From the NCBI GenBank assembly GCA_024684435.1, contig JAIKWV010000032.1, forward strand, positions 1 to 64,000: 64,000 bases of DNA, given 5' to 3'. The stretch is from Clostridiales bacterium. Lineage in GTDB: Bacteria; Bacillota; Clostridia; Oscillospirales; Acutalibacteraceae. Shown here one piece after another: positions 26,101 through 31,453 of the stretch; within the stretch, counting starts at the first letter, position 1, and each line of letters starts with the position of its first letter. The translations under genes were made by a program, and so were the position numbers. The notes below the pieces were generated by a model, which was not told the origin of the DNA, did no database searches, and saw nothing but the letters and a program-made list of their open reading frames with translations.

Positions 26101-26868
26101 TTACTTATTTCTTTCATATATTATTTTCAAACCTTCAAGCAGTAATTCTCCGTTGTATATAACGTCATGTTTGCACTGCTTTACTATTCCGGCTGCAAAT
26201 CCTCCGGTGGCGACTATGGACTTTACCGGCGTATCCAACTCCTCGTTTATCCTGTCGCACATTCCGTCGATCATGGCCGCGGCGCCGTAAACGGTGCCGG
26301 AGGTCATGCTGTCAATGGTATTTTTACCCACCACACGACGCGGGGTGTCAAGGCTTATGCCCGGCAGCTGAGACGCCCTTGAATACAGAGCCTCAAGGGA
26401 TATACCTATGCCCGCGGATATCGTACAGCCACAGAAGGCTCCTCTGCTGTCAATAACGCTTATCTTTGTAGCGGTACCCAGATCAACTACAAGGCAGGGC
26501 AATGGGTATTTTGCCGCGGCGGCAACAGCTCCGGCTATAAGATCGGCGCCCACCTGCGCAGGATTGTCCGTCTGGATATTAAGCCCGGTTTTTATGCCCG
26601 GAGCTATTATCAAAGGCTTTATCCCGGATACTCTTTCTATGGCTGAAGATACCGCCGCTGTCAGTTCCGGTACAACGGAGCTTATCACTGCCGCCGAAAA
26701 GTCCTCGCCATTTGTATTGTTTAGCCAGAAGATCGCCCTTAGCTCCACAGCGTACTGGTCGGCGGTACGGGATCTGTCGGTAGCAAGGCGGGAAACAAAG
26801 GCAAGGGTATCTCCGTCATATGCGCCTATGGAGATATTGGTGTTGCCCACATCCAGGGTAAGTATCAT
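26101..26868 (-). CDS. coaX: type III pantothenate kinase
   Basis: 255 residues. CoaX phosphorylates pantothenate, the first step of coenzyme A synthesis, without feedback inhibition by CoA. It has the ASKHA-fold phosphate-binding motif DVGNTN (6-11), the pantothenate-binding GADLIAGAVAA and the second phosphate motif DLGTATKISVID. Length is standard. The start at 26868 is set by the motif position and AGAAAGG upstream; the in-frame codon at 26898 would add ten unrelated residues. It is 96 nt upstream of the ECF S component gene, giving an uptake-plus-activation pair. Confidence 0.95.
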   Translation of the reverse strand: MILTLDVGNTNISIGAYDGDTLAFVSRLATDRSRTADQYAVELRAIFWLNNTNGEDFSAAVISSVVPELTAAVSSAIERVSGIKPLIIAPGIKTGLNIQTDNPAQVGADLIAGAVAAAAKYPLPCLVVDLGTATKISVIDSRGAFCGCTISAGIGISLEALYSRASQLPGISLDTPRRVVGKNTIDSMTSGTVYGAAAMIDGMCDRINEELDTPVKSIVATGGFAAGIVKQCKHDVIYNGELLLEGLKIIYERNK

Positions 26869-26925
26869 AAAATCAGCCTTTCTGAAAGATAATTGCAAAC
26901 CGCCTGATGTAAATCGTCCGTTAAT

Positions 26926-26954: not shown

Positions 26955-27046
26955 TAAATAAATGTTGCCGGGACTTTACGGGCGTATTTTCCCCATATAC
27001 GGAATTTGTCAGATAAAAAATATTTTGGAAAATTTTTGAAAAAGTG

Positions 27047-27075
27047 TTGACAAATTATACAAAGCGTGATAATAT
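27047..27075 (+). promoter_or_regulatory. distal promoter P1 of the rpoB leader
   Basis: TTGACA (27047-27052), 17-bp spacer, TAATAT (27070-27075). Bases 27039-27055 (AAAAAGTGTTGACAAAT) are identical to the same part of promoter P2 at 27465-27481. Confidence 0.8.
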
Positions 27076-27081
27076 CAAATC

Positions 27082-27212
27082 AAGTCAACAGCTTGTTGAC
27101 CGTTTGAATCCGAACTCTTCTTAACAGTTTTCTCATATCCCCCTTTTTTTTAGGTTCCCCCCTAAAAAGCAAAAAGTCTTCCTTTACGGGAGGCTTTTTG
27201 CTTTATTTTTAT
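27082..27212 (+). ncRNA. candidate small RNA or attenuated rpoB leader
   Basis: A unit of about 130 nt starting at P1. The 5' end forms a hairpin GTCAACA-GCT-TGTTGAC (27084-27100). The 3' end is a 17-bp terminator stem (27166-27182 with 27188-27204) followed by ATTTTTAT. A competing stem CTTTTTTTTAGG/CCTAAAAAG (27143-27169) overlaps the left terminator arm, so an antitermination switch is possible. There is no good reading frame. The rpoB start is 470 nt further on. The remaining bases 27213-27464 are A/T-rich and show no other clear feature. Confidence 0.55.
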
Positions 27213-27472: not shown

Positions 27473-27501
27473 TTGACAAATCAAATCCTATCCTCTATAA
27501 T
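27473..27501 (+). promoter_or_regulatory. proximal promoter P2 of rpoB-rpoC
   Basis: Perfect TTGACA (27473-27478), 17-bp spacer, perfect TATAAT (27496-27501). The 5' UTR to rpoB would be about 175 nt. It is preceded by an A/T-only tract that could act as an UP element. Confidence 0.9.
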
Positions 27502-27682
27502 GCTACAGTATGCAATTTATAATGGCTATTTGTCCGCTATTGATAATTATCGCAGATTATTTTGTGACATTTTTCACGCAAATATTCACTGCTTTTAGGG
27601 CAATATGCACTAAAAACGCGGCGATTAAAATCAAAAGCGGCAAACAGAGTCGGATGAATAAAATGAACGGAGTGATTGGCCA

Positions 27683-31453
<3,771 letters not shown>

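Follow-up and report, generated by a model that had tools for sequence, protein, structure and literature searches.

The window, a 64,000-nt stretch of a Clostridiales genome (Oscillospirales, Acutalibacteraceae; contig JAIKWV010000032.1), contains a gap of approximately 780 nt between rpoB, which starts at 27683, and the minus-strand ORF 26101–26898, presumably a coaX-like gene, a name taken from its sequence only. An earlier, sequence-only reading had placed in this gap a strong promoter, a 5′ hairpin and a 17-bp terminator enclosing a segment free of reading frames, and had interpreted the unit as either a small RNA (sRNA) or an attenuator in the rpoB leader. The question raised by the locus is whether the unit serves rpoB or is a gene in its own right. 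In our best reading it is probably a stand-alone gene for a trans-acting regulatory RNA of ~125 nt.

Anatomy of the unit upstream of rpoB

All the elements named by the sequence-only reading, and the gap itself, were found. They are listed below together with the promoter of rpoB.

27047–27075, + strand: P1, predicted sRNA promoter, TTGACA-17-TAATAT with TG before the −10 hexamer (extended −10), 10/12 matches
27082–27209, + strand: candidate sRNA gene, predicted transcript ~122–128 nt
27084–27100, + strand: 5′ hairpin directly after the predicted start, 7 bp, GTCAACA-GCT-TGTTGAC, loop GCT/GAT
27112–27138, + strand: conserved segment GAACTCTTCTTAACAGTTTTCTCATAT, mostly single-stranded, the same at 27/27 positions in the related species G002
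27128–27146, + strand: anti-RBS motif TTTTCTCATATCCCCCTTT, reverse complement AAAGGGGGATATGAGAAAA
27146–27169, + strand: C-loop hairpin TTTTTTAGG-TTCCCC-CCTAAAAAG, 9 bp (27146–27154/27161–27169), sequence identical in G002
27166–27204, + strand: intrinsic terminator, 17 bp, loop of 5, T-rich tail
27473–27501, + strand: P2, rpoB’s own promoter, TTGACA-17-TATAAT, 12/12, outside the sRNA

The predicted start of the P1 transcript lies at ~27082. No plus-strand ORF of at least 80 aa is present within the interval in the ORF list, and the frames seen there by eye are TTG-started, a few codons long and lack a Shine-Dalgarno (SD) sequence. The strand 27081–27212 folds at −37.3 kcal/mol, compared with −18.4 ± 3.05 kcal/mol for shuffled sequences, none of 200 of which was as low (z −6.2). 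In the structure ensemble of the window copy, the open segment is unpaired. The 27-nt segment, GAACUCUUCUUAACAGUUUUCUCAUAU, is followed in order by C5, a U-run, AGGUU, C6 and UAAAAA; C5 is C-rich region 1 (27139–27143), while C-rich region 2 (CCCCCC, 27157–27162) is in the C-loop hairpin, the foot of which shares 3–4 nt with the terminator base.

A bare promoter scan returned 8 sites against 4.8 ± 2.5 expected, a number not beyond chance. A divergent promoter-like site on the minus strand (TTGATT-18-TATAAT, 27054–27083) overlaps P1 and faces the coaX-like gene; its −35 element is lost in G002.

Conservation and relation to rpoB

Three genomes of the genus were compared: those of the window species, G002 and G001. 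G002 carries the unit before rpoB with 84% identity, and the unit is preserved there beyond background. In pairwise alignment, P1 is 93% identical, the open segment 93% and the stretch from C-rich region 1 through the T-run to C-rich region 2 96%, as against 44–48% for the spacer DNA after the terminator; third positions of rpoB are identical in 137/200 cases (68.5%). The P1 spacer reaches 94%, compared with 59% for the spacer of the rpoB promoter. The terminator is 79% identical, and all its stem differences preserve pairing: one pair is changed on both sides (G-C to A-T), three are changed on one side and none is broken. The G002 copy folds with a z of −6.21, its middle being less clearly open than that of the window copy. 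The upstream genes differ, a coaX-like gene on the opposite strand in the window and the end of a plus-strand ORF in G002, so it is the unit and rpoB, and not a wider neighbourhood, that the two species have in common. G001, whose RpoB is 79% identical over the first 200 aa, lacks the unit at rpoB, and covariance models R1 and R2, described below, found no copy elsewhere in its genome. Nor was the unit found by blastn or nhmmer at about 80 other Oscillospirales rpoB loci; a covariance-model search of these gave no convincing copy, the weak matches being on the minus strand or at the level of terminator noise. Among the loci examined, the rpoB-linked copy is confined to two species.

As an attenuator, the unit would let transcripts from P1 either terminate or read through into rpoBC, depending on pairing of the T-run with the left terminator arm. 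The unit does lie on the strand of rpoB, upstream of it in both carrier species, and the T-run 27144–27151 is able to form pairs with the As at the base of the terminator, as had been proposed. This pairing, however, is that of the C-loop hairpin (loop UUCCCC), which takes at most the outermost 3–4 terminator pairs (A-U) and leaves the terminator in place. No mutually exclusive antiterminator of comparable stability was found: blocking the right terminator arm of the window copy gave a structure ~15 kcal/mol worse. Moreover, rpoB has its own promoter, P2, 268 nt past the terminator, and the DNA between the two is just 44–48% identical in G002. A promoter-like site (at least 9/12) precedes rpoB in 80 of the 81 loci with enough upstream DNA, mostly 130–300 nt upstream; G001 and other relatives retain the rpoB promoter although they lack the unit. 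Because P2 lies past the terminator and the unit is absent at G001 and ~80 related loci, we consider an rpoBC attenuator very unlikely. With P2, a C-loop hairpin that spares the terminator and the ~15 kcal/mol cost, the anatomy is that of a finished small transcript and not of a switch for rpoB, and the unit is probably outside the rpoB leader. Of the two possibilities offered by the sequence-only reading, the small RNA is the one supported, by a conserved, self-contained promoter-to-terminator unit with compensated structure and no ORF that is absent at most relatives’ rpoB.

The rpoB promoter contains, in its initially transcribed part (27502–27531 in the window), a −10-like element with the consensus ATAATGG. 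Elements of this type occur in 63 of 80 Oscillospirales rpoB loci (L009–L089, L122) against 0.9 in shuffles, for a pattern written post hoc, with AATGG mostly 14–16 nt after the −10 hexamer. It could act as a promoter-proximal sigma pause or as a leader signal.

Possible relatives in other genera

Covariance model R1, built from the window and G002 copies, was searched in 398 genomes of the same family. It matched a locus in genus g50 (L125; 58 bits, E 2e-9), as well as the genus mates L128 and L133. All three have the 5′ hairpin, GAUUACUUCUUAAUUGUACUUUUUCAUAUUUCCCCUUU, a terminator and a motif similar to TTTTCTCATATCCCCCTTT. Since R1 noise, including plain terminators and a 3′ UTR, extends up to ~47 bits, 58 bits is modestly above noise, and homology of the g50 RNAs to the unit is likely, not proven. 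In a five-sequence alignment, which was fitted to the model, pairing is 100%, and 13 pairs are changed on both sides, compared with 7.1 in shuffles and 1–4 in slid controls; the 5′ hairpin accounts for six such pairs out of seven. The g50 RNA lies ~120 nt after 6S RNA, a position at which nothing similar was found in the window’s genus. In g50 an extra hairpin with a CCCCC loop precedes the sRNA gene, at L125 1174–1618, L128 1179–1618 and L133 (minus strand).

Other matches to R1 were rejected, L126 as the 3′ end of a coding gene and L127, L131 and L136 as terminator only. The retrained model R2 gave no further clear member, and most of its matches, below 50 bits, were rejected as noise. In blastn searches of the 398 genomes, the unit had only short matches beyond G002, mostly to the terminator. 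The same design of 5′ hairpin, complement of SD-AUG-AAA and terminator was recognized by eye at L164, L149, L177/L185, L166, L175 and L178. A 5′ hairpin, a near-invariant TTTTCAATACAACTCCTCCCC and a terminator occur at L171, L174 and L182 (g78) and L142 (g101), which form a second candidate sRNA group. When the whole candidate set was aligned with MAFFT, the alignments failed to anchor on the motif, and no claim made here is based on them. As these lineages were picked by a model containing the motif and the motif is generic, the similar designs may have arisen by convergence as well as by descent.

Direct repeats resembling PhoP boxes, with 11-bp spacing, are present in candidate sRNA promoter regions at L148/L166 and also at L132/L177 and L175; at L148, TTCACA-N5 occurs four times, with one copy as GTCACA. 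The repeats suggest phosphate control of those candidate sRNAs. A broader reading, possible but in our view unlikely, would assign the RNA to a family-wide set of Oscillospirales sRNAs, so far undescribed, that change their position (by rpoB, by 6S RNA) and serve as broad-target dampeners of translation tied to growth or phosphate state. Here the open segment would be the complement of a consensus start (SD, AUG and Lys codons), and PhoP-box-like control would apply in some lineages.

Proposed function and comparison with known regulators

In the reading preferred here, the unit encodes a stand-alone trans-acting sRNA. Complementing its conserved open stretch UUUUCUCAUAUCCCCCUUU gives AAAGGGGGAUAUGAGAAAA, a Shine-Dalgarno sequence plus AUG. 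By sequence and conservation, the unit has its own promoter, an intrinsic terminator, no ORF and C-rich regions that are open or in a loop and complementary to the SD, features of this functional class. A search for Hfq gave no match in the three genomes of the genus. Because of the SD-AUG complement, the RoxS-type C-rich regions and the lack of an Hfq match in the genus, we propose that the RNA is a trans-acting, Hfq-independent anti-RBS sRNA. P1 would produce it, constitutively or under a regulator, the 5′ hairpin would shield its start and the terminator would end it. The open U/C-rich segment and C-rich region 1 would pair with the SD/AUG of target mRNAs, as would C-rich region 2, presented in the hairpin loop, and pairing would block 30S binding or change mRNA decay, as for RoxS.

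A search with the strict SD-AUG complement pattern matched only the antisense of the sRNA gene itself, and AGGGGG-N-ATG sites showed no enrichment, with 62 counted and 83 for the control with the pattern reversed. Duplex energies for putative targets, computed without a null, pointed to no convincing target and are not counted as evidence. This outcome would suit a transcript that is conserved and terminated, or an insulator separating the adjacent genes, with no function in trans, as would a strong terminator ahead of an essential operon. An insulator, however, would have no need of a promoter whose spacer is conserved or of an open segment invariant over 27 nt, and we regard this reading as improbable. 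Alternatively, the motif might provide a short antisense gene with its RBS and start, since its minus strand, AAAGGGGGATATGAGAAAA, resembles SD-AUG; the ORF would be MRKLLRRVRIQTVNKLLT. In G002, indels beyond codon 8 destroy the frame; in L125/L128 it ends after only five codons, and the promoter and the terminator U-tract are oriented the opposite way. A conserved minus-strand ORF was rejected because its frame is not kept, and we give an antisense gene almost no credence.

To our knowledge, gut Oscillospirales have been little surveyed for trans-acting sRNAs. Literature searches returned nothing relevant on a Firmicutes sRNA located before rpoB or on sRNAs in Ruminococcus/Faecalibacterium. 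In a search of the whole window against Rfam 15, the sole match above its gathering score was a tRNA, and relaxed thresholds added nothing convincing. A conserved C-rich sRNA that fits no Rfam family and has similarly built relatives would offer a handle on post-transcriptional control in Oscillospirales.

In the rplL-rpoB attenuator of Escherichia coli, read-through from the upstream ribosomal genes feeds rpoB. The locus studied here resembles it in having a terminator-like structure upstream of rpoB and differs from it in that the rpoB promoter follows the terminator and the directly upstream genes are not ribosomal. Its position calls for caution: a terminator before rpoB need not mean an attenuator.

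RoxS/RsaE, also a short RNA of Firmicutes, resembles the unit in its U/C-rich stretch with SD-pairing C-rich regions and in its 3′ terminator, but it is known from Bacillus and Staphylococcus, whereas the present unit is from Oscillospirales. The C-rich regions of RoxS are SD-pairing seeds, region 3 is required to block 30S binding on ppnKB, and the RNA carries a duplicated CCCCUUUGUU (PMC4409812). That the unit is a true RsaE/RoxS homologue is highly improbable. Two C-rich regions, a U/C-rich open segment before the terminator and a weak Rfam RsaE match (27104–27201, 20.3 bits, E 0.86) speak for it; against it, the gathering score of the family (RF01820) is 79, the duplicated CCCCUUUGUU is missing and the g50, g54 and g69 candidates have no RsaE match at E 1. 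Membership was rejected on the gathering score and the duplicated CCCCUUUGUU. C-rich regions are also found in FsrA, CsfG and IsrR (PMC4409812, PMC9410917). The iron-regulated FsrA and IsrR of Bacillus and Staphylococcus share with the unit several C-rich seed regions aimed at the SD; the unit matches neither in the Rfam search. Judged by these comparisons, the unit would best be read as a so far undescribed regulator of a known kind, the C-rich sRNA type of Firmicutes.
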